From contig NC_052401.1 in assembly GCF_009389715.1 (NCBI RefSeq), forward strand, positions 4,251,530-4,315,529: a stretch of 64,000 nucleotides of DNA, read 5' to 3'. The number at the start of each line of letters is the position of its first letter. The first letter of the stretch is position 1. The DNA comes from Phoenix dactylifera (lineage: Eukaryota > Streptophyta > Magnoliopsida > Arecales > Arecaceae). Positions 8,987-61,730 of the stretch are shown one piece after another. A program made the position numbers and the translations under genes. A model generated the notes under the pieces. The model ran no database searches, was not told the origin of the DNA, and saw only the letters and a list, made by a program, of their open reading frames with translations.

Positions 8987-9253
8987 TGTTGGGTTTTGAC
9001 CCACATGACCACATCGTGGTCAGTTACGATCCCGTGAGAAGTGGAGGCATTATCCTTGATGGTAGGATAACATAACGGGTCTCACCCTCTGCCTAGATGG
9101 TGAACACTGCATCGGTCTCCATCACCGGGTGTTCGAACAGGGGCCAAGAGGGAGATACGAACTAAGGACTTGATCATCCAGAAAACAATGGATCCAGGTA
9201 CGCTTCCTTTATTTGAAGACTGGTTCATGATCCTATTTATAGATGTTCCTACA
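8987..9253 (+). repeat. 5' LTR of element 2 (267 bp)
   Basis: It starts TGTTGGGTTTTGACCC and ends GTTCCTACA. It is the same length as the 3' copy and differs from it at three positions. It contains ATGGATCCAGGTACGCTTCC at 9188-9207, near its right end. Confidence 0.97.
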
Positions 9254-9255
9254 TG

Positions 9256-9267
9256 TGGTATCAGAGC
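9256..9267 (+). promoter_or_regulatory. Primer-binding site (tRNA-iMet)
   Basis: TGGTATCAGAGC starts two bases after the 5' LTR. It is the standard plant copia primer site, complementary to the 3' end of initiator methionine tRNA. Confidence 0.95.
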
Positions 9268-9360
9268 CTGGTTCATCCTAGAACCAGATCACAGTAAAAG
9301 GGTAGATCACAGGGACAAGGCAATGATCGTTTTGGCCAGTATAGAGGCGATCTGATCATC

Positions 9361-11104: not shown

Positions 11105-14100
11105 TATCTATTCCTGTTTCGCTTCATTCGCAAGCTTCATCTGTTACAATCTTTAATGGAACTAATTTCTCAGAGTGGAATGAACAAGTCCAGTTTCACC
11201 TAGGTGTTCTGGATCTTGATTTAGCACTCCGATCTGAGAAACCGGCTGACATTACTGATTTGAGCAGCTCGGAAGAAAGGTCTTTTTATAAGACTTGGGA
11301 AAGATCGAACAGATTGAGCATTATGTTTATGCGGATGAGTATAGCGAACAATATCAAGTCAACGCTTCCTGAATGTGACAGTGCTCAAGCATTATTGAAA
11401 ACTGTGGAAGAACGTTTCCGATCTGCTGATAAGTCTCTGGCTGGGACATTAATGGCTAAACTTACCACCATGAAATTTGATGGTACTTGTGGGATGCATG
11501 AGCATATCCTTGAAATGACAAATATAGCTGCTAAGCTGAAGGCTCTTGGGATGGATGTGAATGAATCCTTTTTAGTTCAATTTATTTTGAACTCCTTGCC
11601 TCCTCAATTTGGATCATTTCAAATTCACTATAACACTATTAAGGATAAGTGGAATGTGAATGAATTGACCAGTATGCTTGTTCAAGAGGAGACAAGACTT
11701 AAGCAACAAGGATATCATTCTGTCAATCTTGTAAGTCATAGAGCCAAGAAGAAATGGAAGAAGCCAAGAAAGGGCATGAAGAGTGGACCATCCAAGGGTA
11801 AAGAGCCTCATCATGATACCGAGGTTCATAAGAAGAAACAAAACAAAGATAGATGCCATTTCTGCAAAAAATTGGGACACTATCAGAAGGACTGCCATAA
11901 ACGCAAGGCATGGTTTGAAAAGAAAGGTAAGCCTTTGGCTTATGTATGTTTTGAATCAAACCTTACTGAAGTTCCTTCTAATACTTGGTGGTTTGACTCA
12001 GGTTCTAATGTTCATGTTTCAAATACGATGCAGGGATTCCTTACAACCCAGATGCAAGATCCAAATGAGAGTTTTAATCGTTTTGGGGAATGGAGTTAGA
12101 GTTCCTGTAACAGCTGTTGGAACCTATCGTTTGCTTTTAAATACTGGTTGTCATTTAGATTTGCTTCAGACTCTTTATGTTCCTTCTATTTCTAGAAATT
12201 TAATTTCTGTTTCTAAACTTGATGTTGAAGGATATTTCTTTAAAATTGGGAATGGTAGTTTGCGTCTTTTCAAAGACAATGTCTTTCTTGGTTCTGGTGT
12301 TTTGTGTGATGGTTTATATAAAGTAAATCTTGATAATCATTTTGCTGAAACTCTTATGACCTTGCATCGTAATGTTGGAATTAAACGAAACATGATAAAT
12401 GAAAAATCTTCTAACTTGTGGCATAAAAGATTGGGTCATATATCCAAAGAAAGATTAGAGAGATTAGTAAAGGATGGGATTTTGTCAAACTTAGACTTTA
12501 CTGATCTCGGTATGTGTGTAGACTGCATTAAGGGAAAGCAAACCAAACACACAAAGAAAGTTGCCACAAGAAGTGAAGAACTTCTTGAAATTATCCATAC
12601 AGACATTTGTGGGCCTTTTGACTCCCCATCATTTGGTGGAGAGAAGTATTTTATCACCTTTATTGATGATTTTTCACGTTATGGTTATGTCTATTTGTTG
12701 CATGAAAAATCTCAGGCAGTGGATGTCCTAGAGGTATACATTACTGAGGTTGAAAGACAATTAGATAGAAAGGTGAAAATTGTCAGGTCTAATAGAGGTG
12801 GTGAATATTATGGTAGGTATGATGAAACAGGACAACACCCTGGCCCATTTGCTAAACTCTTAGAAAAGCATGGCATACGTGCTCAATACACTATGCCGGG
12901 AACGCCACAGCAGAATGGAGTAGCTGAAAGACGTAATCGTACTCTTATGGATATAGTTAGGAGTATGTTAAGTAATTTTTCTTTACCCATGTCGTTGTGG
13001 ATGGAAGCCCTTAAGACCGCTGTATACATATTAAACCGGGTTCCTAGTAAGGCAGTTCCAAAAACTCCTTTTGAGCTATGGACAGGAAGGAAACCGAGTT
13101 TAAGACACCTGCATGTTTGGGGTTGTCCGGCGGAGGCCAGAATTTATAATCCACATGAAAAGAAATTGGATTTTAGAACGATTAGTGGATACTTTATAGG
13201 TTATCCCGAAAAATCCAAAGGGTATAGGATTTACTGTCCTAACCATAGTACAAGAATTATAGAGACCGGTAATGTCAAATTCATTGAGAATGGTGAAACC
13301 AGTGGGAGTGATAAATCACAAAATGTGAAAATTCAAGAAGTTAGGGTGCAAGTCCCTTTACCCATGACTTCTAAGAAAATTGTTGTTCCTACAGTTGTCA
13401 CACAGTTTAATAACAATGAACAACAAATTAATGATCAAACACTCCATAATGAAGTTATCACCACTGAACAAGTTGTAGAAGAACCACAAGGGATGACATT
13501 AAGGAGATCTCAAAGAGAAAGAAGATCTGCCATTCCAAATGATTATATGGTTTATCTACAAGAATTTGATTTTGATATAGGGACAAGAAAAGATCCGGTT
13601 TCTTTTAAACAAGCCATAGAAAGTGTTGATTCTACTAAATGGATTGATGCCATGGAAGATGAGTTGAAATCAATGGATCAGAATGAAGTCTGGGATGTCG
13701 TTGATTTGCCCGAAGGTTGTAAAACAGTTGGGTGTAAGTGGGTCTTTAAGACCAAGCTCGACTCAAAGGGTAATGTTGAACGACATAAAGCCAGACTGGT
13801 GGCCAAAGGTTTCACTCAGAAAGGATGCATTGATTATAAAGAGACCTTTTCTCCTGTATCTAAAAAGGACTCATTTAGAATCATTATGGCTTTGGTTGCA
13901 CATTATGATTTAGAGTTGCACCAAATGGATGTAAAAACTGCTTTTCTGAATGGGAGTTTAGATGAAGAAGTCTATATGGACCAGCCCGAAGGTTTCCCAT
14001 TAAAGGAAAAAGAACACATGGTTTGCAAATTAAAGAAGTCAATATATGGTCTTAAACAAGCTTCCCGACAATGGTATCGCAAGTTCAATGATACCATCAC

Positions 14101-15163
14101 TTCCTTCGGTTTTAAGGAAAACACTGTTGATCGGTGTATATACCTGAAGGTCAGTGGGAGCAAGTTTATCTTTTTGGTCCTATATGTTGATGATATATTG
14201 CTTGCCAGTAGTGATCTTGGCTTATTGTATGAAACTAAGGTTTTTCTCTCAAAGAACTTTGAAATGAAAGATATGAATGAGGCAACCTACGTGATAGGTA
14301 TTGAAATATTTCGTGATCGATCACGTGGATTGTTAGGGTTGTCTCAAAAGGCATATATAGACAGAGTTCTAGAGAGATTTGGTATGGAGAATTGTTCAGC
14401 CAGTGTTGTTCCAATTCAGAAAGGGGATAAATTTAGTCTCATGCAATGCCCACAGAATGAATTGGAACGTAAGCAGATGGAAAATATACCTTATGCTTCT
14501 GCAGTTGGTAGCTTGATGTACGCTCAAACCTGTACCAGACCGGACATAAGTTTTGCAGTTGGAATGCTAGGAAGATACCAAAGTAATCCAGGGATGGATC
14601 ACTGGAAAGCTGCAAAGAAGGTGATGAGATACTTGCAAGGAACAAAGAATTACATGCTTACATATAGAAAGTCAGATAGCCTTGAGGTGATTGGCTATTC
14701 GGATTCAAACTTTGCTGGATGTGTAGATAGTAGAAAGTCAACGTTTGGCTATTTGTTCCTATTAGCTGGAGGAGCAATCTCATGGAAAAGTACCAAACAG
14801 ACAAGCACTGCTTCGTCCACCATGGAAGCAGAATTTGTGGCATGCTTTGAGGCCACGGTTCATAGTTTGTGGCTGCGTAACTTCATCTCGGAACTTGGGA
14901 TTGTCGACTCTATTGCCAGGCCGCTGAGAATCTTTTGTGACAATACTGCAGCCGTCCATTTCTCCAGAAACGACAAATATTCTAATGGTGCCAAGCACAT
15001 TGAGCTTAAATATTTTGTTATCAAGGAGGAAGTTCAGAAACAAAATGTGTCTATAGAAAATATGAGGACAGAGCTCATGATTGCAGATCCTTTGACGAAA
15101 GGTTTACAACCGAAGACTTTTAAAGAGCATGTTGAAAGAATGGGTCTTAGTTGTAATCCATGA
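11105..15163 (+). CDS. gag-pol region of copia element 2
   Basis: The gag domain begins near 11105 ([18 protein letters not shown]) and ends in a CCHC zinc knuckle at about 11854-11895 ([14 protein letters not shown]). A protease-like WWFDSGS follows near 11988. Then come integrase (12420-13150; [19 protein letters not shown]), reverse transcriptase (13650-14400; [16 protein letters not shown]) and RNase H (14690-15130; [16 protein letters not shown]). The conserved gag start has no upstream ATG in its frame; a pyrimidine-rich tract ending in AG (11085-11104) stands directly before it. The region carries about one break and is otherwise well preserved. Confidence 0.92.
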
Positions 15164-15542: not shown

Positions 15543-15809
15543 TGTTGGGTTTTGACCCACATGACCACATCGTGGTCAGTTACGATCCCGTGAGAAGTGG
15601 AGGCATTATCCTTGATGGTAGGATAACATAACGGGTCTCATCCTTTGCCTAGATGGTGAACACTGCATCGGTCTCCATCACCGGGTGTTCGAACAGGGGC
15701 CAAGAGGGAGATACGAACTAAGGACTTGATCATCCAGAAAACAATGGATCCAGGTATGCTTCCTTTATTTGAAGACTGGTTCATGATCCTATTTATAGAT
15801 GTTCCTACA
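15543..15809 (+). repeat. 3' LTR of element 2 (267 bp)
   Basis: It is the same length as the 5' LTR, with three C/T differences, and is followed directly by the GTTGC target duplication. Confidence 0.97.
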
Positions 15810-17269: not shown

Positions 17270-18457
17270 TTACATTTCTGCCTTTGATGCCTTGACGTCT
17301 CCACCCTTGTTGGTCTCTTCTACAATGTTCACCACCCTCGGCTGCCTCTTCTTCTCCCCAGCCAGCTTGGGAACAGCCACCGTCAACACTCCATCCTCCA
17401 AGTGAGCTTTAATGGAGTCCATGTCCGCGCTCGCCGGAAGCCTGAACTGCCTCCAGAACTTGCCGGAGGTCCTCTCGGCTCTATGCCATTTCTCACCCTC
17501 CACCTCCTCCCCGCCCTTCCTTTCTCCGGTGATCCTTAGCACCCGGTTCTCCTCTACCTCGATCTTGATATCCTCCCTCTTTACCCCTGCATGATGTCAT
17601 GATGCCACCAATGCCAATGAGCAATCACTTGCAGTAATTTCCAAGATAAATTAAGGTAAAATTATCCAAGAAAAATGAGAAACGCTTCAATGTCCAACTA
17701 ATGCACTGTTTAAAGCTCAACCATCTTATATCGATCATGTCTAACTCCACTAAGTTTCACATTCATACTTATGGCGAAGGTGATGATGATTCAGGATGGC
17801 TGGCCCGAAATATTTATGTTATGATGAGCGATGGAGTGGACTTTCGAATCAAGCATATTTTCAGAGAGATAAACAAAGTCGCGGACTAAGTGGTTTTATA
17901 TACGGCCAACCAACCACTCCAGAGACATCTTATGGGATTGAAAAGAAGTATTTTCTAGAGCACCTTAAGATTTATTATTTTTTAATATTATCAAATATAT
18001 TTTTACTAAAAAGATATGAATCATTTGTTTTAGTAAATAAATAAAAATAAAAAAATAATGATGATGATGAAAGTACCATAGTCATATATTTGCATTTTTG
18101 GATATTAATTTAGTAAGATCATTAAGGGAAACATGGATGCCATGCACAGTTGAGTTAATTAAGAGATTTGATAAGACACGGGGCATGTGGCATAGGAACC
18201 ATGTACATGATACCTGGAACATCGAGAGAGATCACGTGAGCCTGGGGAGTCTCCTTCCAGTCGGCACGTGCGAGGGCGAGTTCGTCCACGGCCTTGGGCA
18301 TGGTGAAGGGAGCCTGCTCCAGGATTCGGAAAGGATCATCGCTAGGCAACATCATGTCCCAAAGGCTCCGAGAGTAGGGCATCAGGCCCTTCGTTGGAAG
18401 AGCCACCAGGCCCAGAAGAAGAAGAAGAAGAAGAGCCGAGACCTTAGAAGCCCTCAT
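17270..18457 (-). CDS. Class IV (ER) small heat-shock protein, gene A
   Basis: It has two exons, 18457-18214 and 17586-17270, giving 186 aa; the 627-bp intron is phase 1 with GT donor and AG acceptor (CCAG|GTATC ... TGCAG|GGGTAAAG). The protein is an ATP-independent chaperone that binds unfolding proteins. Residues 1-24 form a signal peptide (a long Leu run from [10 protein letters not shown]). The alpha-crystallin domain runs from about [11 protein letters not shown] to [12 protein letters not shown] and includes [10 protein letters not shown]; a C-terminal V-x-I motif (RVVNI) is present. The ending KAEM is weakly like an ER-retention tail. The start is the only ATG giving a signal peptide. 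The paralogue at 23952-25157 has its intron at the same codon, which confirms the gene model. The intron holds a LINE scrap. Confidence 0.92.
17790..17960 (+). mobile_element. LINE RNase H scrap in the intron of sHSP gene A
   Basis: The plus-strand reading [15 protein letters not shown], followed by a stop and then VVLYTANQP, resembles the last catalytic motif of the plant LINE RNase H domain (REANxxADWxA). Trp appears to have become a stop. It lies antisense within the intron at 17587-18213. It is short, so confidence is limited. Confidence 0.5.
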
Positions 18458-18583
18458 TGGGAGATTTACAAACGTTATTAACAAAAAAGTTTGACAGAGA
18501 GAGAGAGAGAGCTGATGGAATGCCTGCGTTTGATGTTTGCTTTGTTCTTGGATTGAGAAGGGTTGGGGTTGATGGGGTTTTTT

Positions 18584-18735
18584 TTTTATAGGAGGAAGAG
18601 GAGGGATTTCTGGAGTTCTCTTCTGATTTCTGGAGGGTATGGGTTCTCTTCTGGGTGCTTCTGGTTGCTTCACACGTAAGGATTGTTCTAAAGACACGTG
18701 GCAGAAGCAGAGACAATGTCGTGAATGTTCTGGAT
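18584..18735 (-). promoter_or_regulatory. Promoter of sHSP gene A: TATA box and HSE-like motifs
   Basis: On the minus strand TATAAAA lies at 18590-18584, about 130 bp before the ATG. Upstream are heat-shock-element-like arrays: TTCTGGAGTTCTC (18608-18620, TTCnnGAGnnCTC) and GAATGTTCTGGAT (18723-18735, GAAnnTTCnnGAT). A CACGTG core stands at 18695-18700. The pattern fits induction by heat-shock factors; binding itself is inferred. Confidence 0.6.
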
Positions 18736-45455: not shown

Positions 45456-45630
45456 AAAGTGCAATGCCCTTGATGTTTATTGGTACCAAGCGCAGTAGAG
45501 ACACATGCATTGATAGGAAAGAGAAGCCTAGGATGAAATGCTACAATTGCAGGAAGCTGGAGATTTTGCTTGTGAATGCATTGAACAAATCACAAAGTAG
45601 ACCAACTCTCTGCATTGTGGGAGAAATGTT
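45456..45630 (+). mobile_element. Older copia remnant, left half
   Basis: The plus-strand reading KPRMKCYNCRKLE is a decayed copia gag zinc-knuckle region. It stops at the left target duplication (ATGTT, 45626-45630) of element 3. The matching right half continues at 52222. It is a fossil with several breaks and older than element 3. Confidence 0.6.
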
Positions 45631-46373
45631 TGTTGAATTAAATCAAATAATTTAAAATTTGAAAACCAAAATTGGTTAACGGCCAAGTGGCAAGCATCCG
45701 TGCACAAGCAAGGGAGCAAACATGGAAGAATTTCTAATGAAAGCAAACCATGACAAGTGTCATGTATCCAGCGCAGGAGCAAACATGGAAAGGCCCCTCG
45801 AAGAAGGAAGGAAGCATGAACGGCCAAGATGCAATAAGCCGAAGAATCAAAGGAGCACAAGAAGACACGTCATCAATCTGCGGGAGGGGAATCTTCTTCT
45901 TTTGACGTGTCTGAGCCTATATAAAGGGCTCTAGGGATCATTTCAAAGGACAATCAAAATTTTCTCTTCTCCCTATTCCAAGAGTCTAGATAAAAAAAGG
46001 CTCTAGGGATCATTGGGGAGAAAAGAAATAAAGAAAATTTTTCTTCTCTTCATAATTTTTCTAAGTTTCTTTTGAGCTATCTGCAAGCGTGAACGTGCTC
46101 TTCTTTCTTCCCTGGAGGCGCACTGATGGAGAAGACGTGGTTCTGTATTGGGTCGTCGTATCTCTAGGAGATCTGTGCCAGCAGACCCGTGCGTGGGGGG
46201 CATAAACTTTCCTGGGACAGCGCATCAGCGTGCTTCGATCCACATGCCATCTTCTCTCTCTTTCTTCATTTTATTATTATATTGTCAAGTTAGTTATTTG
46301 CTAGTTTATTCTTCTTATTTATTGTTTTTGAATATTAGAAATATTTAATTATATTTGTGCATCTAGGCTAACA
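45631..46373 (+). repeat. 5' LTR of element 3 (743 bp)
   Basis: It starts TGTTGAATTAAATC and ends CTAGGCTAACA. A TATATAAAGG box at 45919-45928 predicts transcription from about 45950. The segment 46201-46215 (CATAAACTTTCCTGG) is the exact reverse complement of the sequence at the primer position. Confidence 0.96.
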
Positions 46374-46375
46374 AT

Positions 46376-46390
46376 CCAGGAAAGTTTATG
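46376..46390 (+). promoter_or_regulatory. Non-tRNA primer-binding site, complementary to own LTR
   Basis: CCAGGAAAGTTTATG begins two bases after the LTR, the usual copia distance, but lacks the TGG start expected for pairing with a tRNA 3' CCA end. It is an exact 15-nt reverse complement of 46201-46215 in the LTR. Self-priming, as known for the fungal element Tf1, is the inference. Confidence 0.65.
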
Positions 46391-46913
46391 TACGGTTAGC
46401 ACTAGATTTTAGATTGCAATATTTATTAAATATTTTGCTGCATAATTATAAATTGTTCTATTTTAGCTGTTACACATTTATGCTAGCTTTACTTTAATAC
46501 TTAATTTTTTAAGTAAAATATTAGATTGCTTAACCTCCAAGAGCTTTATTAATACCTCCATTTGGACTCCTTACGGAGTAATTTCCAGATTCCATTCAAA
46601 CGAAAATTCGGAAATTGGTTAATTCATAGGAGCTAGCTTAATATTGCACTTAGGATAAAATTGAACGATATCTAGTGAAATTATCTATTGAATAACGGTG
46701 TCTAAGAAAAGCTTGTCAAAAAGGCATACGTGCCTAAAAAAGGCTGGTACTTAAGTGAGCCAAGTGCTCCACCACCGATCTGGAGCTGATCTGGCTGTTA
46801 TTCTTTGGATTTTTTAATTAGACATCTAAAGTTCAATTTAAATATCAGTGCAATAATTTGACATAAACCTTCTCATTTCCACAGGTGTCAAAATTGTGTT
46901 AAGCTACAAACTA
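46391..46913 (+). other. Leader of element 3
   Basis: About 520 bp of non-coding sequence between the primer position and the first gag ATG (46914). A TTTCCACAGGTG string at 46877-46888 resembles a splice acceptor, but no use of it is shown. Confidence 0.5.
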
Positions 46914-49900
46914 ATGGCTTCCCACGCATCTGAAAATCTTAGTGCTAAACCTGAAAAATTTGATGGTCAAAACTTTAGAAGGTGGCAGAATCAAATGCGG
47001 TTCTAGCTCACCACCTTAGGCTTGATCTCCGCCATTGGTGGGTCTAACCCATCTGCTTCACGACCTTCTACTCGCAACAACCCAAACCTTGCTCCTTCTG
47101 ATGATGCATCCTCCACTAGGACTCCAGAAGAAACCAACTACCACTGTCTTCATAAAATTCTAGGAGCCCTTTCTGATAGGCTTTATGATATTTATTATAT
47201 AGCTAAGAGTGCCAAAGATCTCTGGGATACCTTAGAAAATAAATATGGACTTGATGATGCCGGGGTAAAGAGATTCAAAGCTTCTAACTTTAGCAAGTTT
47301 AAATTTGTTGATTCCAAATTTATGAATGATCAAATCCATGAATATGAAACATTGATTCTTCAACTCCAGGCAAATGGAACCCACTTAGATGAGTCTTTCC
47401 AAGTTGCCTGTATTATAGACAAACTTCCCTCTACCTGGTCAGACTTTGCCAAGACTTTGAGCCACACCCAAGGTGATCTGTCTCTAACCCAAGTCCTAAA
47501 TTCTATTAGGATTGAAGAACAACATCGCCTTAGAGAAAAATCTCACTCCTCCAATCCTTTGCCCAAAGTCAACAATGTTGAATCCAAGCCCAAATCCAAA
47601 AATCAGAATCGTTTTTTCCGTCCCAACCACAACAAGTCCTTCAAGAAGAAATCATTCAACCATAGGAACTCCTTTCAGCCCAACAACAGAAAACCCAACT
47701 TCTCTCAGAACCAGAAGAAAGAGAAAGAAGGAGAATCTGTTCGTTGCTGTTTTGTCTGTGGTCGGACCAACCATATGGCCAACCAATGCTTCTACAAGAT
47801 CACTACTCCTCGTCAACCTAGAAGTAAGGGTCCTACCACTTCTGGTGCCCAGGCCAACATGGTGACCTGTGGGGCTAACTCCTTTGAGACTGCTATCAGG
47901 TCTGTTTCTTTCATACCTGAAGTTAACATGACACAATTAGCACTTGACTGGTGGATTGATACCGGAGCTAGTATACATGTTTGTTCTGATCGCTCCTGGT
48001 TTTCATCTTATCAGATCTCATGTAGAGGAACTGTGACCATGGGTAATAATGCTGTGGCGCGCGTGCTTGGAGCGGGACGAGTGGATCTGACACTTACCTC
48101 TGGGAAGATCCTTACTCTGCAAGGCGTGCACCACGTTCCAGACATCCGTAGAAATCTAGTTAGTGGATCCTTGCTTGTCCAGCAAGGATACCGAATTGTT
48201 TTTGAATCAAATAAAGTTGTTGTAACCCATGGTGTCTCTTTCATCGAAAAAGGTTTTCTTTGTGATGGATTGTTTAAACTCAATGTGATTATTCCATCTA
48301 TGAATGAAAATTCTATTGTTCTTCATATTGACTCTCCTGTTGTCTAGCATAGTAGGCTGGGACATGTAAACTATAGTTCAATTAAAAGATTAATGCACTT
48401 GAATTTAATCCCAAAATCAGAAATTAAGAATAATGATAAATGTGAGATATGTGTAGAGGCCAAATTACCCAAAAAACCCTTTCACTCTGTAAGTAGAGAT
48501 TCTGATCTCCTTGAACTCATATATAGTGATGTATGTGACTCAGGGAGAACCTCAAGGGGTGGAAACAAATATTTTGTAACTTTCATAGATGACCTTTCTA
48601 GATACTGTCACCTCTATCTTATCAAAGCTAAAAATGAGGTCTTAAATAAATTCAAAGTCTATAAAGCAGAGGCTGAAAACCAACTAGATAAAAAGATTAA
48701 AATCTTAAGGTCTGATAGAGGAGGTGAATATACCTCTTTTGAGCTGACCCAGTTCTGTGAAGAACATGGGATAATTCATGAAGTGACAGCTCCTTATTCA
48801 CCCCAATCTAATGGAGTAGCTGAGAGAAAGAATAGAACCTTAATGGATATGGTTAACTCTATGTTAATTAGTTCAGGTGCACCAGAAAATCTTTGGGGGG
48901 AAGCACTAGTAACTGCATCTTATATCTTGAATAGAATTCCATTCAAACATAATGATAAAACTCCATATGAAATCTGGAAACATAGAAAACCTAACTTAAA
49001 ATATTTAAAAGTGTGGGGGTGCTTAGCTAAAGTAAAAATTTCAGAAAATAAAAGAAAGAAAATTGGACCCAAAACAATAGATGCAATATTTATAGGATAT
49101 GCAATTGAGAGTAATGCTAATAGATTTTTAGTGTTTAACTCTCAAATAAATGAAATTAATAACAACACTATAATGGAAGCAAGAGATGCAATCTACTTTG
49201 AAAGTATATTTCCTTTTAAAATAAGGATAAATGATCAAATAAATACAAATAATAACTTAGGGACTAGTTCTAGCAGAACCAGATTTAGAGAAGAAGAAGA
49301 AGAAACTGAACGTAGAAGAAGTAAAAGAACTAGAGTTGAAAAGAACTTTGGAGAAGACTACTACACATTCCTAATAGAAGACTATCCTACTTCTTTAGAG
49401 GATGCCTTGAAATCTCTAGATGCCCCCTTCTGGAAAGAAGCAATAGATAATGAAATGCAATCTATAATCCAAAACCATACTTGGGAATTGGCAGACCTAC
49501 CCCAGGAAATAAATCCATAGGGTGTAAATGGATCTTTAAGAAGAAACTTAGGCCAGATGGAACTGTAGACAAATATAAGGCTAGGTTAGTAGCCAAAGGT
49601 TTTACTCAAAAATCTGGGATTGCCTTCTTTGATGTTTATGCCCCTGTAGCTAGAATCACTACTATTAGGATTCTTGTTGCCTTGGCTTCCATTCATAAGC
49701 TGGTTATACATCAAATGGATGTTAAAACTGCTTTCTTGAATGAGGACCTAGATGAAGAGATCTACATGAACCAACCCGAATGTTTCATTGTCCCAGGTCA
49801 AGAGAAAAAGGTATGTAGGTTGATTAGATCTCTTTATGGTCTAAAACAAGCCCCCAAACAATGGCACCTTAAATTTGATGAAATAATTCTAACTAATGGA

Positions 49901-50920
49901 TTTAAAATTAATAACACAGATGAATGTGTATATTATAAAAAGAAGAATAACAAAATTATAATTTTATGTTTATATGTAGATGATATCCTAATTTTTGGAT
50001 CAGACTTAGAAATTATTAATGAAGTAAAACAATTTTTATCTCTAAAATTTGACATGAAAGATTTAGGACAAGCAGACCTAATCCTTAATACTAAAATCAT
50101 AAGGAATGAAAATGGAATAACTTTATCCCAAAGCCACTATGTGGAGAAAATTCTTAAAAAGTTTCACTACTCTGATTGTCATCCTGTATCTACTCCCTAT
50201 AATCCATCTCTTCATCTAAAGAAGAACTTAGGTGATCCAGTCAATCAAAGCTTGTATGCCCAGATCATTGGTTCTTTAGGATTTCTTGCAAATTATACCA
50301 GACCTGATATTGCATACTCTGTGAACTGACTAAGTAGATATACTCACAATCCTAATAATGATCATTGGACTGCCCTAGAAAGAATTCTCAGGTACCTTAA
50401 GGGTACCATATTTCTAGGATTACACTATTGTGGTTATCCTGCTGTTCTGGAAGGCTATAGTGATGCCAACTGGATCAGTGATACAGTTGACACCAAATCC
50501 ACCACTGGTTTTGTCTTTCTTTTAGGAGGTGCAGCTGTATCATGGAAGTCTACCAAACAAACTGTAGTGGATAGGAGCACCATGGAATCTGAAATGATTG
50601 CCCTAGATACCACTAGCATTGAAGCCGAGTGGCTTAGAGATCTACTGATAGATTTGCCTATTGAGACTTCACCATTACCTTCTATATCTATTCATTGTGA
50701 CTGCAGATCTGCTATAGATAAATGCAATCAAGAAAATGCAAATGTGAAAATGAATAGGCACTTGAAAGTGCGCCATAAATCATTGAGATACAAATTAAAG
50801 AATAACTTGATTGCACTAAATTTTGTAAGATCCGAAAGGAATCTAGCTGATCAGCTTACCAAAGGATTGTCTAGAACAGTGGTTCTAGAGTTGTCGAGGG
50901 GGATGGGGCTAAGCCCATAA
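46914..50920 (+). CDS. gag-pol region of copia element 3
   Basis: gag runs from the ATG at 46914 and contains a CCHC knuckle near 47745-47800 ([14 protein letters not shown]). Protease is marked by [14 protein letters not shown] near 47950. Integrase (48480-49050) shows [14 protein letters not shown] and [10 protein letters not shown]. Reverse transcriptase (49500-50230) shows DVKTAFLN and LYVDDIL. RNase H (50440-50910) ends in DQLTKGLSR and SRGMGLSP. The organisation is normal for copia. The region is broken, with about four breaks, and no intact polyprotein is present. Confidence 0.92.
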
Positions 50921-51473
50921 GTAAAGTCACCACGGTGGTAACCCAACCTGAAAAGGTTCAATGGGTAGAAACAAGCTAGATAGGTGACTAATGAGGAGCA
51001 CTATTTGTTTTTCCCATCCCTAGGGCAACAGTGCTCATAAAAAGCAAGGGTTAGGTTGAGTTTTTACTCTTAATGAATCCGAGACCCATGAGGCAGGGTA
51101 CCTACTTGCTCGTACCCTTTTTCAGGATTCACCTATATGCGTGTAGTCGTGAGGCCTCGACTGTGGGAAGTGGGCTGTTCCCTAATAACACACATGAAGA
51201 GATACCTGCGCATGGCCGTAAAGCGCAAACCCGCTTCGAGCATGTTCACGCTATATTATGTGTGCTGTTGATGAAATCTGAGCCATGGACCAAGGTTCAA
51301 GGCATAGTCCACTTTGGCTCCACAGAGGTAATCAATTGTCACTAAGTGAAGGTTCAAACCGAAAGGTACCTACACCTATTACATAATATAAGATACTCAG
51401 CATTTTATTTTGATTTTTTTTAAAATTTTATTTTGATTTTAAATTTTTTAAATATTTAATTTATGTGGGGGAT
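50921..51473 (+). other. 3' region and polypurine tract of element 3
   Basis: About 550 bp of non-coding sequence follow RNase H and end in GTGGGGGA (about 51465-51472) directly before the 3' LTR. The unusual length for a 3' region suggests conserved RNA structure, which is inference. Confidence 0.6.
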
Positions 51474-52216
51474 TGTTGAATTAAATCAAATAATTTAAAA
51501 TTTGAAAACCAAAATTGGTTAACGGCCAAGTGGCAAGCATCCGTGCACAAGCAAGGGAGCAAACATGGAAGAATTTCTAATGAAAGCAAACCATGACAAG
51601 TGTCATGTATCCAGCGTAGGAGCAAACATGGAAAGGCCCCTCGAAGAAAAAAGGAAGCATGAACGGCCAAGATGCAATAAGCCGAAGAATCAAAGGAGCA
51701 CAAGAAGACACGTCATCAATCCGCGGGAGGGGAATCTTCTTCTTTTGACGTGTCTGAGCCTATATAAAGGGCTCTAGGGATCATTTCAAAGGACAATCAA
51801 AATTTTCTCTTCTCCCTATTCCAAGAGTCTAGATAAAAAAAGGCTCTAGGGATCATTGGGGAGAAAAGAAATAAAGAAAATTTTTCTTCTCCTCATAATT
51901 TTTCTAAGTTTCTTTTGAGCTATCTGCAAGCGTGAACGTGCTCTTCTTTCTTCCCTGGAGGCGCACTGACGGGGAAGACGTGGTTCTGTATTGGGTCGTC
52001 GTATCTCTAGGAGATCTGTGCCAGCAGACCCGTGCGTGGGGGGCATAAACTTTCCTGGGACAGCGCATCAGCGTGCTTCGATCCACAAGCCATCTTCTCT
52101 CTCTTTCTTCATTTTATTATTATATTGTCAAGTTAGTTATTTGCTAGTTTATTCTTCTTATTTATTGTTTTTGAATATTAGAAATATTTAATTATATTTG
52201 TGCATCTAGGCTAACA
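51474..52216 (+). repeat. 3' LTR of element 3 (743 bp)
   Basis: Same length as the 5' LTR, with 8 substitutions counted by eye and no indels. The primer-complementary segment is unchanged at 52044-52058. Confidence 0.96.
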
Positions 52217-52221
52217 ATGTT

Positions 52222-57100: not shown

Positions 57101-60100
57101 CACTGCACTGGCATGATACCAGCTGCATCCCAGTATTGGGCATGCTACAGTGCCTGTGCATGCTAGTGCATGCCAAGCATACAAAGCACCAGCATGAAAC
57201 AGCATGTCAGGCATGACCTTTATATGTACCTGGCTAGCTCCAGGCCAGAATGCCACTGGCACAATTAATTCAATCCTTACTAATATGATCACAAACAAGT
57301 GCACAGACATGTAATAAATGCTTAAGAGAAGTAAATGAGTAGTCAAGCAGAGAAAGCTTCCCTATGTCGGTCTAGAGCATGTCAATCAACTATTTAGTCA
57401 GATAATAGTCTGGGATAAAATTATGGCCTACCTTCATGTTCAGTGATTGATACTAGCTTTCCATGAACTCCAAGTAATTCTCTCAATGTCTTCGAATGAC
57501 ATCTTTGGATGCACCTTCTCCAAATCTCAGCCAACTTCTCAGGGCTTACACACCTTACAACTCTTTTTCCTGGGGCATCATTTGTCTGTGTGGAATCCAG
57601 TAAGCTTCTATCGACAAATCTACTATGTGAAGGCAACACATCACAGATTAAGTTCTCATTCATTGTCATTCTATATGATGATGATGAGCCATTAAGGCTT
57701 GGATGTCCATTGGTCGATCTAGGAATCAAACCTACATTTAGTTCCTGAGGCATAAGTGAAGGATGAGACTTGTTCTTGCAAAGTGGGATGTCTTTGACCA
57801 TTTCAGATGCATTATCATTAAATTTTTTAGCACTGTGTTTGCAGATGCTGCTTGATTGATTAGTTTCCAGATTATGGCCAGAGCCAAGCTGTAGAAGAGC
57901 TGCAGTGAACCATGTTGAGCGTTCGCTTGAAAGCCTTAACTGCTTTTCGGCATCTGAAAGAATCTTCAATGCTTGTTGCAACCTCTCTAATTCAGCTTCA
58001 GTTACTGGAGAATAATCCAGGGGCAAAGGAATATAAGAATCAGACCTTTGAGTCAATCTGAGTTAATTGCAGAACAACATACACCACCATTATCAGATAC
58101 AGTTTATGTGGACAAAAATTAACACATGCAGATATAGTTGATGTGACATTTTAAATTTAGAAAATAGTACTGCTGTAAAGAAATGTGAAAGGGGCAGAAG
58201 CAAAACATTTGGGGCCTATTTAGATATGGCTAACAATCCTGCAAGAATCGGACCTGTTGGTCCATGTAGCTTGCATTTTTTAAGGGCCTGTCCATTATCC
58301 AGCCTTTGGGCTGCAGAAAGAAAAAAAAAGACCAATGAAGGTCTTTTTTCCTTCTCATAGGATTTGTACTGGAGGTGTTTAGCTGATAGAGCCATGCTTG
58401 AATGGGAGCCTGATCCATGAATCTTGCAGGACTTTAGCATCACTTGTTGATAGTAGCAAATGACAGAAGAGAAACCAAAGAATTATGCCAAAATGGTACA
58501 ATCAATGATGATAATGAAATTAAATTAAAAAAAAAAGTTGCAACTTATGCAAAGATATAAGAATGCCACAGTAAACTGATATTAATACAGTCAAATGTTG
58601 ACAGTACATTGGTAACAAGAAATATTAATCAGGTAACATGAATTTTTCTGAGTTCATGTTGAATATAACACCACCTTCAGGACTTGATTCAAACCAAAAT
58701 GATACTTTTCTCCGAAAACTTCATATGGATTTACATGTGCATGACCCATCAATTTGACAGCCTGAAACCATCTGAGCAGCATTTATGAAATGAATCTGCT
58801 CCATGTTTGAATGACAAAGGCCCAATTTGAAATTAGCATATTGATTGAGCAGTTTGCCTCAAGAATAAAGGGTATCACATACTATGCATAAAGATATTGA
58901 GCTCACTATGTGTTCATTTTACTAAAAGGTACTGATTTAGGTGACAGAAAGGAGTACTAGTTGAACTTTGTATACTCACAACTTCGCCTGCCAAGAGTTG
59001 TAGTACCACATTGCGAGTTGGCCAACCGGTAAGTTCCAGCAATAATGTCCATTATGAGCCCAGCTAATTGAGACATCAGAGCCATCGGATCAACACCAGA
59101 ATCCATCAGCTCTCTGGACCTTTCGACAGTTTCTGCAGTGTTTGATGACATGGCTATCTCCAAAAGATCAAGTAATTTCTCATCTGAGACAACCCCAACC
59201 TGGAAGTTTACACAATAAGTTGCTTCTGATATAAAAGAAGTCAATCCTACTACAAAATTCAAGATAAAGGAAAAGTCCAAGCCAATATTTAACAATCTTT
59301 AGTTTCACTAAAAAATTTATAATGCCTGTTTGACTATGACAGTTGCTATTATTGACAGCATCAGTGAAATCAAAACCCAAAAACTGATAATTCTAATATA
59401 GAGATTTAAAAACTTCATCAAAAAACAAACACAGAAACTCACAAATGCTAAATAAACATATCCTGGAAAAAGTGCAAAGATTAATCCTGTTTTCAGATTA
59501 TTGACTCCCGAAATCAAAAGCTAACCAAATGCTCAGAAATCTTCTAACAATATCACTTGGTACGTTTTAGACTCTACAGAGTGAACCCATGTTTTGTTGT
59601 CATTAATACCTTCCCAGATAATGATCACCTTCACCAGCATTCGATAAATCAGATCAGTATCAGTTTGTCAAAACTAATATCAGAAAGATAAAATGCAAGG
59701 AAACTGTAATGAACAGAGATATTCGGAAGCAAACTCACTAGATCGTTAACAAGAGAAGTGGTTATTTTTCTTCCTAGCAAACTCAGTTGATCTAGCATTG
59801 TTTCTGCATCCCGAAGTGAACCATCTGAGTTTAATGCAATCAAATCTAGAGCCTCCAATTCAATATCAAGGTTTTCTGCAGCAGAAAGCTTTCTCAACCG
59901 GAGGATTATATCAGCATCTTTAACCTTCGAAAAAATGTACTTCTGACACCGTGATGCAATAGCTTGGGGCAAGTTGTCTGGCTCGATAGTTATGAATATG
60001 AAGACAACACGAGGTGGTGGTTCCTCAAGAAATTTCGTAAAGGCTGACCACATTTTGGAAGATAACATGTGGCATTCATCAATGACAAAGACTTTGTATC

Positions 60101-61730
60101 GCGAAAATGTTTTAGCCATGGCCAAATATTTTACCAATAACCTAATTCCATCTATAACCTTCTTATTGGTGGCATCCACTTCTCTGAAATTTGTTCCACT
60201 TCCACCAGAAAAAGTGGTGCACTCACTACAGAAGCCACATGGTTTGTTATCTTCAGTAGATAGGCAGTTCAAGGCTGCAGCAAATATTCTTGCAATTGAT
60301 GTTTTTCCTGTCCCACGTGGGCCTTGAAACAGATAAGCAGGGGCTATTCTACCCCTAAAGATGGCATTATTAAGTGACTGAACGACAATATTTTGGCCAA
60401 TTACTTCATCAAAAGACCTTGGCCGATACTTCTGGCTCAAGCTTCTTTGCTCTGTGATGTCCAACTCGGCCTCTTCAGTTCGGCCTAATTCCACTCCCTC
60501 TTGGGTTTTACAGCTAGACCATCTCCTTCCATCCAACCGGCTCATTGCCTCCAAATCAAGCTCTCCATAGTTAGTGGACAGTTCATCACTAGCTGTATCT
60601 AAGGATGAACCACCTCCATCACAACTGTTAGTCATTAGTGGCAAACCTTGGGAAGTCTTTGAAAGGTATTTTTGCTTGTGGGAACCAGATGATCTCTTCT
60701 TATTATACAATGTCTGACTCCCACAAAGAATACTACTACCTTTTCGCCTTAAAGTATCAGAAAGTGAAGGAGAATAAAAACCTCCACAGCCTGTGTCTTT
60801 AGCTCTCTTTGGCCAATAGCATGGAATGCCACATCCTTGGTGCCTTGGTAAGTCTGGTTGGTCCAATTCATCCCCATCATAAGAAGCAGCACTTCCATCC
60901 CATGACCCAACAGTACTGGGGTTTCGAGCTCCATAATGTCTGCAGTAAGAGCTAGTTGAGGCAGGAGTATAAGAATGAGATGAACCTTCCCTTCTAGTAC
61001 TTCTTCGGATTTTGGACGAACATGACCAATTCCCACATCCAGATCCAGAGAACAAAGGTGAGTCAGTGCGAGACAGGTAGCCAGTTTTCTGTGTTAGCCC
61101 ATTTGTTAACTGCCATAAATCCTCAGAATTGCAGTTCTCAGTATCATCGGACTGCTCAACTGAGTCAAGAATTCCTAACAAGCTGGATGGAAGATCTAGA
61201 AGCTTTGAAACTGCTGAATGCTTAATTACCCCCTTTTTTGAAATAGAACTTTTTCTCGCCTGTTTCACAGTTCTTCTAACTGGAGTCTCTGAATTTGCTC
61301 CTGCAAACCTATAAACGTTTACAGGAGCTTGAAGATAAGTATCACTCTTAGAATCTAAATCATAAGGATAGCTCAAGCTGTCCTCTGGACTCCCTTCAAC
61401 TGATTCTTGCCTGTCATCATCATCCAATTTAATTCCACTGCCACTAGCTTTACTAGAATGATGCCTCCAATTATAAAGGTAGACATTTTTCCTTCTGTTT
61501 TCACTTCTTGAAGGTGGTTCCAGTGATGCACCACAATTATTTTTTCCTGTTAGGTTCCTCCTGATCCCATTTTCATTGTTCAAACTAGAAGTCACTGCAA
61601 ACAATTTGGAACTTAAGGGGGACCTCCAAGATGAACAAGTTTCAGGGTCACGTAAATACCGTGCCTTTCGAAGTGCAGTAAGCTCCTTCTTCAGGTGAAG
61701 TTCACTTGGACCAACACGTATATCCACCAT
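54181..61730 (-). CDS. STICHEL-like protein (DnaX/AAA+ domain)
   Basis: Six coding exons (61730-59739, 59199-58980, 58004-57432, 56112-55332, 54426-54357, 54282-54181) give 1245 aa with consistent GT-AG junctions, close to Arabidopsis STICHEL, which controls trichome branching. Start motif VGPSELHLKKELTALRKARY is typical of the family. The AAA+ region resembles bacterial DNA polymerase III gamma/tau: SQKYRPRSFDEVIGQ (from 432), Walker A GPRGTGKTS (470-478), zinc cysteines 489, 498, 501 and 504, Walker B VFVIDECH (547-554), SRC (593-595) and sensor GSLRDAE (637-643). The long N- and C-terminal parts are plant-specific; the C-terminus is Cys/Gly-rich (GPGCNGLFCW) and then basic. Polymerase activity is not implied. 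A splice-acceptor-like site at 61801 suggests an intron in the 5' leader. Confidence 0.94.

Follow-up and report, generated by a model that had tools for sequence, protein, structure and literature searches.

A Phoenix dactylifera Ty1/copia element that most likely primes reverse transcription with RNA of its own LTR

The copia element at 45631–52216 of the window, i.e., of the whole 64,000-nt stretch of Phoenix dactylifera DNA that was analyzed, raises the question of which primer starts its minus-strand synthesis. The 5′ LTR ends with CTAACA and is followed by the two bases AT and then by the 15-nt site CCAGGAAAGTTTATG (46376–46390). This primer binding site (PBS) begins with CCA and not with the TGG that is characteristic of priming by a whole tRNA such as initiator-Met. 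As the original prediction had pointed out, the exact reverse complement of the 15 nt is found in the LTR itself, at 46201–46215 and 52044–52058. In our view, the best explanation is that a Ty1/copia element, most likely of the TAR lineage, very probably primes minus-strand synthesis with its own LTR RNA, a conclusion that we draw from the sequence comparisons described in the following.

The features of the element are compiled in Table 1. Both of its outer ends are bordered by the 5-bp TSD ATGTT, and Pfam searches revealed the Ty1/copia order of domains, with Retrotran_gag_2 followed by rve and then RVT_2, which places the integrase upstream of the reverse transcriptase (RT). The reading frames of this copy are broken into several pieces, and the C-terminal frame is probably the RNase H, as judged by its resemblance to such domains. 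Transcription is predicted to start near 45948, about 30 nt after the TATA-like box. The earlier estimate that the primer segment lies about 250 nt downstream of the start thus holds as a prediction that depends on the box at 45918. A scan of positions 45600–46700 with Rfam gave five matches, all far below the gathering scores.

Table 1. Features of the window element and of copia element 2 (positions refer to the window).
Feature	Position	Strand	Basis or remark
Left TSD ATGTT	45626..45630	.	Read in sequence; repeats at 52217-52221
5′ LTR, TGTTG...CTAACA, 743 bp	45631..46373	+	98.9% identity to 3′ LTR; 8 differences
TATA-like box TATATAAA	45918..45925	+	283 nt before primer segment
LTR block with self-primer inside, conserved with sister family	46131..46238	+	BLASTN, window LTR against L084 LTR
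5′ arm of possible local hairpin, partner of primer segment	46163..46179	+	Pairing and changes on both sides; energy not exceptional
Proposed self-primer CATAAACTTTCCTGG	46201..46215	+	Exact PBS complement; covariation
Two-base spacer AT between LTR and PBS	46374..46375	+	Read in sequence; identical spacer in sister family
Primer binding site CCAGGAAAGTTTATG	46376..46390	+	Position after LTR; exact LTR complement; covariation
Gag and Pol_BBD reading frame	47022..48347	+	Retrotran_gag_2 2.4e-22, Pol_BBD 7.9e-25
Integrase reading frame	48393..49520	+	rve 3.1e-14, SH3_retrovirus 1.8e-15
Reverse transcriptase reading frame	49481..50329	+	RVT_2 2.2e-74
C-terminal frame, 117 aa	50567..50920	+	Pfam: no match
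Polypurine tract TGTGGGGG	51464..51471	+	Followed by AT (51472-51473), then 3′ LTR
3′ LTR, 743 bp	51474..52216	+	8 differences from 5′ LTR
Primer segment, second copy, unchanged, inside 3′ LTR	52044..52058	+	Exact match
Right TSD ATGTT	52217..52221	.	Read in sequence
Copia element 2, LTR copies	8987-9253 and 15543-15809		267 bp match at 98.9%

Elsewhere in the window, a frame on the reverse strand (59649–61730) contains a DNA polymerase III clamp-loader-like ATPase domain according to Pfam and resembles plant STICHEL-type genes. Another reverse-strand frame (18155–18697) gave no Pfam match and looks like the N-terminal part of a small heat-shock protein of the ER.

The complementary segments could in principle be an inverted repeat that arose by chance in a single decayed element, and the frames of the window copy are indeed in pieces. 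The probability of such a match had been put at the order of one in a million, which is a fair figure, as an estimate from base composition gives 8e-7 per LTR and 4.8e-6 when offsets are included. Dinucleotide-preserving shuffling of the LTR, with six start offsets covered, produced no 15-nt match in 5000 trials, the longest match being 12 nt, which occurred once. When up to three mismatches were permitted, the PBS had seven matches within the window, three of them exact and four with three mismatches. A search of the host genome, which comprises 773 Mb in 2391 contigs, located the exact 15-mer at 103 places (46 forward, 57 reverse) and the reversed pattern at none. A DNA search with 241 bases spanning both segments yielded 334 candidates, of which 40 were scored, the window itself included, and 41 of the 100 15-mer places listed fall in these scored copies. 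Forty-eight places were read singly, with 39 found in the LTR of this family (family 1), eight in its PBS, and one in unrelated DNA. As three of the 48 overlap the 41, 86 of the 103 places are accounted for. Chance is thus opposed both by the shuffling and by the 47 of 48 places that belong to the LTR or PBS of the family, and it was refuted by the finding that a sister family has a matched pair of its own (see below); we regard this explanation as practically negligible. The match in unrelated DNA (L152, G000:C6:12514409-12514564) is exact, and its surroundings resemble neither the LTR nor the PBS region; by a simple estimate, about one match of this type is expected by chance at this genome size.

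Within family 1, the segments show decay and little covariation. Exact complementarity is kept in 12 of the 40 copies, including the window copy, and by eye the segments differ mainly by C>T or G>A exchanges. Pair 5 is C-G in 18 of the 41 distinct copies, C.A in 11, U-G in eight, U-A in three, and U.U in one. The C.A combination is thus uncompensated in 11 of 41 copies, and double changes are confined to the three U-A cells. The last primer–PBS pair is broken in six of the 41 copies, and also in five of the 12 copies of the sister family.

This sister family (family 2) was found by RT similarity, using a 265-aa query with which 144 of 25,093 candidates were scored. Matches of about 79–83% identity constitute the lower part of the scored list, and those that were read belong to family 2. 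We fetched 20 upstream stretches of 2.2 kb each, picked across 79% to 89% identity, and scanned them blindly for inverted repeats of at least 11 nt. The scan revealed the family-2 site CCAAAGAAGTATT(TG), positioned 2 nt after the LTR end AACA or AATA, with an exact LTR complement of 13–16 nt in 11 of the 20 stretches, as well as a 16-nt segment pair of the family-1 type in L098. The family-2 PBS, CCAAAGAAGTATTTG or a near copy, stands at the equivalent place, and its LTR complement lies 288–302 nt upstream. Scoring of the same stretches for both motifs gave 14 with both segments (12 of family 2 and two near family 1). In the other six of the 20 stretches (L080, L086, L088, L094, L095, and L097), both segments together were not found; L080 has a PBS-like site only and L097 an LTR-like segment only.

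The family-2 spacer is the 2-nt AT of the window element, and AT is present on the inner side of both LTRs in both families. The other end of one family-2 copy showed the LTR start TGTTG, the TSD AAGGA, and the polypurine tract TGTGGGGGAT, and this copy shares with the window element the junction TGTGGGGGAT-TGTTG between polypurine tract and LTR. A TATA-like box, TATTTAAA, is located 271 nt before the primer segment in L084, one of the family-2 copies. Dozens of family-2 RT matches lie in open frames of 1342–1350 codons, a few of which are listed with a stop, and many have equal scores. Given the length of these frames, intact copies appear to exist, and the open frames together with the many equal scores suggest a recent burst. 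A third family was sought via the shared flanks in combination with a different primer, which gave 10 and 9 places, compared to 5 and 0 with the reversed controls. Among the eight places that were read, two had a PBS, both of known kinds (L187 and L189), and the other six, some in stretches of only about 300 bases, had no PBS-like site after the LTR end. As no third family was found, the evidence of covariation comes from two families. Outside the host genome, a single scan of viral_contigs and another of genome_contigs detected no relatives.

Comparison of sister copies had been proposed as a check for covariation, and the second family indeed shows primer and PBS changed in step. Both segments were present in 54 of the 61 stretches scanned (53 once the window duplicate was removed), and seven had no such pair. 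Over all 53 copies, standard pairs are formed in 760 of 795 cells (95.6%), namely in 590 of 615 cells of family 1 and 170 of 180 cells of family 2. For the covariation analysis, we chose 15 copies for their diversity, eight of family 1 and seven of family 2, leaving out L091 and L093, the family-2 copies with the worst sites. In this chosen set, 98.7% of the cells of the primer–PBS helix are standard pairs, and five of the 15 pairs are changed on both sides between the families. The observed number of paired cells, the number of double-change cells, and the covariation score were not reached by any of 500 shuffles, but 261 shuffles attained the observed count of double-changed pairs and all 500 that of further pair types. 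When the partner was slid by 1–3 columns as a control, pairing was 30–54%. As a single divergence of two families underlies the changes, they are to be counted as about five family-level events and not as thirty-three cells. In tRNA-primed elements, the PBS is copied from the primer in each cycle; if this also applies here, priming itself would enforce the matching of primer and PBS. With five in-step changes between two families of one genome whose LTRs are otherwise mostly unrecognizable, these data constitute covariation evidence for self-priming and support the proposed self-primed plant copia lineage, which is of an already known kind.

A tRNA-type site is present in the same window in copia element 2, which is also of the Ty1/copia type and, in this respect, differs from the window element. 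Its 5′ LTR is followed by TGGTATCAGAGCC at 9256–9268, and it has a long open frame at 11783–15163. We take TGGTATCAGAGCC to be the usual initiator-Met type of PBS. Rice Lullaby and Tos17 also have TGGTATCAGAGC, according to the accessible text of PMC3977881. Unlike copia element 2, the window element has a PBS that starts with CCA, and a whole-tRNA primer was rejected.

Drosophila copia is primed by a half tRNA. A half-molecule or internally cut tRNA, as in Drosophila copia or Bianca, could also be the primer of the window element, in which case the LTR match would be a by-product, and the use of half tRNAs is indeed described for Bianca, Osser, Bryco, and part of Gymco-II in the accessible part of PMC6317226. 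We compared the sites with tRNAs of the host, for which we scored 63 of 43,082 first-look candidates; 62 of them were matches, and the 40 that were fetched represent 33 distinct tRNAs of nine kinds as identified by ARAGORN, with initiator-Met absent. The expectation that no host tRNA matches the site was borne out for this sample, which is an incomplete set. The best sampled tRNA had seven mismatches in 15 positions to the family-1 primer, and 463 of 500 shuffled primers fitted some tRNA better; the best fits to the family-2 primer and to the site of copia element 2 had four and six mismatches, respectively, and the latter could not serve as a positive control because initiator-Met was missing from the set. 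A pattern search for a half tRNA with TTTCCTGG placed 5–35 nt before a T-loop gave three places in the genome and one with the reversed control, and neither ARAGORN nor Rfam detected a tRNA at the three places. As a tRNA-derived primer moreover leaves the in-step change of LTR segment and PBS unexplained, we consider this alternative very unlikely.

It is also conceivable that the segments pair for packaging, dimer formation, or translation control, and that another primer is used. The evidence covers pairing as such, from which we infer priming, and the leader has competing folds (see below). Against this speaks that in each family the downstream segment is found 2 nt behind the LTR, where a primer site has to be, and that a tRNA-type TGG site was seen there in neither of them. 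A function of the pairing outside priming is thus quite unlikely in our opinion, and priming by the LTR RNA remains the preferred explanation.

For such self-priming, the conserved and covarying complementarity suggests that the RNA of 46201–46215 would pair with the PBS at 46376–46390. The RNA would then be cut between 46215 and 46216, probably by the RNase H of the element, which would parallel Tf1, and synthesis would begin from the 3′ OH at CCUGG, opposite the AT spacer. The RNA at the 5′ end of the minus-strand strong-stop DNA would be ...CUUUCCUGG. As AT is found inside both LTRs in both families, a primer ending with TGG would result in linear DNA with the ends ATTGTT...AACAAT, which have two identical extra bases outside each LTR, and such extra outer bases would be of the kind that integrases often trim. 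With a primer some 250 nt away from the predicted 5′ end of the RNA, strand transfer within one molecule would work only if the 3′ LTR were polyadenylated downstream of 52058; alternatively, the primer could come from a second RNA molecule. An AATAAA is present at 46027–46032, upstream of the primer stretch, and the end of the LTR (46260–46370) is very AT-rich; whether one-molecule priming can work depends on which of the two sets the poly(A) site. Given the internal position of the primer, we would expect either transcripts whose 3′ ends lie beyond the primer stretch of the 3′ LTR or the involvement of a second RNA.

When the LTRs of the window element and of L084 were compared by BLASTN, the 108 nt at 46131–46238 were the sole match below E = 0.1 (73.6% over 110 columns, E 2.9e-10; next matches E 0.14). 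Most copies have in common the primer flanks GTGGGGG (before) and GACAG (after). The segment scan itself required no more than two mismatches to GACAG, and both flanks are also present in the family-2 stretches from the search that required neither of them. The primer can also pair with the segment 46163–46179, giving a local hairpin with this segment as 5′ arm and the primer as 3′ arm, in which 92.7% of the cells are paired and four of the 15 pairs are double-changed. These values are based on 10 distinct rows, with a register that we set from separate folds of both families and with stretches that were cut to make the families align; five of the 10 rows are without pair 5-52, and five are without pair 13-43. 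None of 500 shuffles reached the hairpin values for paired cells, double-change cells, or the covariation score, and 158 and 90 of 500 reached the number of double-changed pairs and of further pair types, respectively. Three 63-nt stretches had folding z-scores of −0.95, −0.67, and −2.44, and two 138-nt stretches had −1.44 and −0.97, so the predicted folding energy is mostly ordinary and gives the hairpin weak support.

For family 1, folding of the full predicted leader favored the local arm over the primer–PBS helix by 1.8 kcal/mol, and in the leader of one family-2 copy the two folds were 1.1 kcal/mol apart, with the ensemble favoring the primer–PBS helix. With shortened family-1 leaders, the primer–PBS helix won by 3.5–3.9 over folds with unpaired PBS. 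The modeling suggests two competing folds, with the local LTR arm and the PBS competing for the same primer, which is a lead and not a proof. Somewhat speculatively, the LTR might contain a self-priming module of about 108 nt with an internal primer that is hidden by the local 5′ arm and used by the PBS, and fold switching might set the transition from message to template. If this rather doubtful idea is true, 5′ arm, primer, and PBS must change together.

Self-priming of plant copia elements is already known as a prediction, and the kind is therefore not new. In its accessible part, PMC6317226 (Neumann et al., 2019) predicts that plant Ty1/copia elements of the TAR lineage are self-primed, refers to Capy 2005 as having proposed this earlier for Houba and Osr-1, and uses as criterion a complementarity of at least 10 bp between PBS and 5′ LTR that starts 0–5 bp after the LTR. 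In the window element, the complementarity extends over 15 bp and begins 2 bp after the LTR, and the sister family likewise has a site that matches its own LTR. Houba of rice is described as producing circular DNA upon treatment with drugs (PMC5501947). Like the TAR elements Houba and Osr-1, as far as they are described there, the window element is a plant copia element without tRNA-type PBS and with a site after the 5′ LTR that is complementary to the LTR; the published description, which is the sole basis of this comparison, shows no difference, and the window element is most likely a member of TAR. Plant copia self-priming in this literature rests on sequence prediction (PMC6317226), and the accessible text of PMC3352295 gives lineage names and no PBS. 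In the accessible open-access literature on plant copia self-priming, no description of between-family covariation, the conserved block, or the hairpin was found, nor was the 15-mer found in the open-access literature. The conserved 108-nt block, the internal primer, and the pairing with a local arm are possibly new. Bianca, Osser, Bryco, and Drosophila copia are, like the window element, copia elements that do not start synthesis from the 3′ end of an intact tRNA; in these four, however, the primer is a tRNA half, and an LTR match is not needed.

Self-priming has been discussed as a possible ancestral mode and for some chromoviruses, according to the accessible text of PMC3601003. As described in the parts available of the respective papers, the primer of Tf1 consists of the first 11 RNA bases, released by an RNase H cut between bases 11 and 12 (PMC7175516), and the RNA of Tj1 is proposed to be cut as primer in a similar way (PMC4600332). 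The window element resembles these systems in that the RNA of the element would pair with its own PBS and be cut. In contrast to Tf1 and Tf2, which are Ty3/gypsy elements, the window element has a copia gag, RVT_2, and an integrase that precedes the RT. While the primer of Tf1 is at the 5′ end of the RNA, the primer of the window element would be located some 250 nt from the start of the predicted RNA, and the TATA-like boxes 283 nt (window element) and 271 nt (L084) upstream of the primer segment, taken as indicators of the predicted starts, argue against a primer at the 5′ end.
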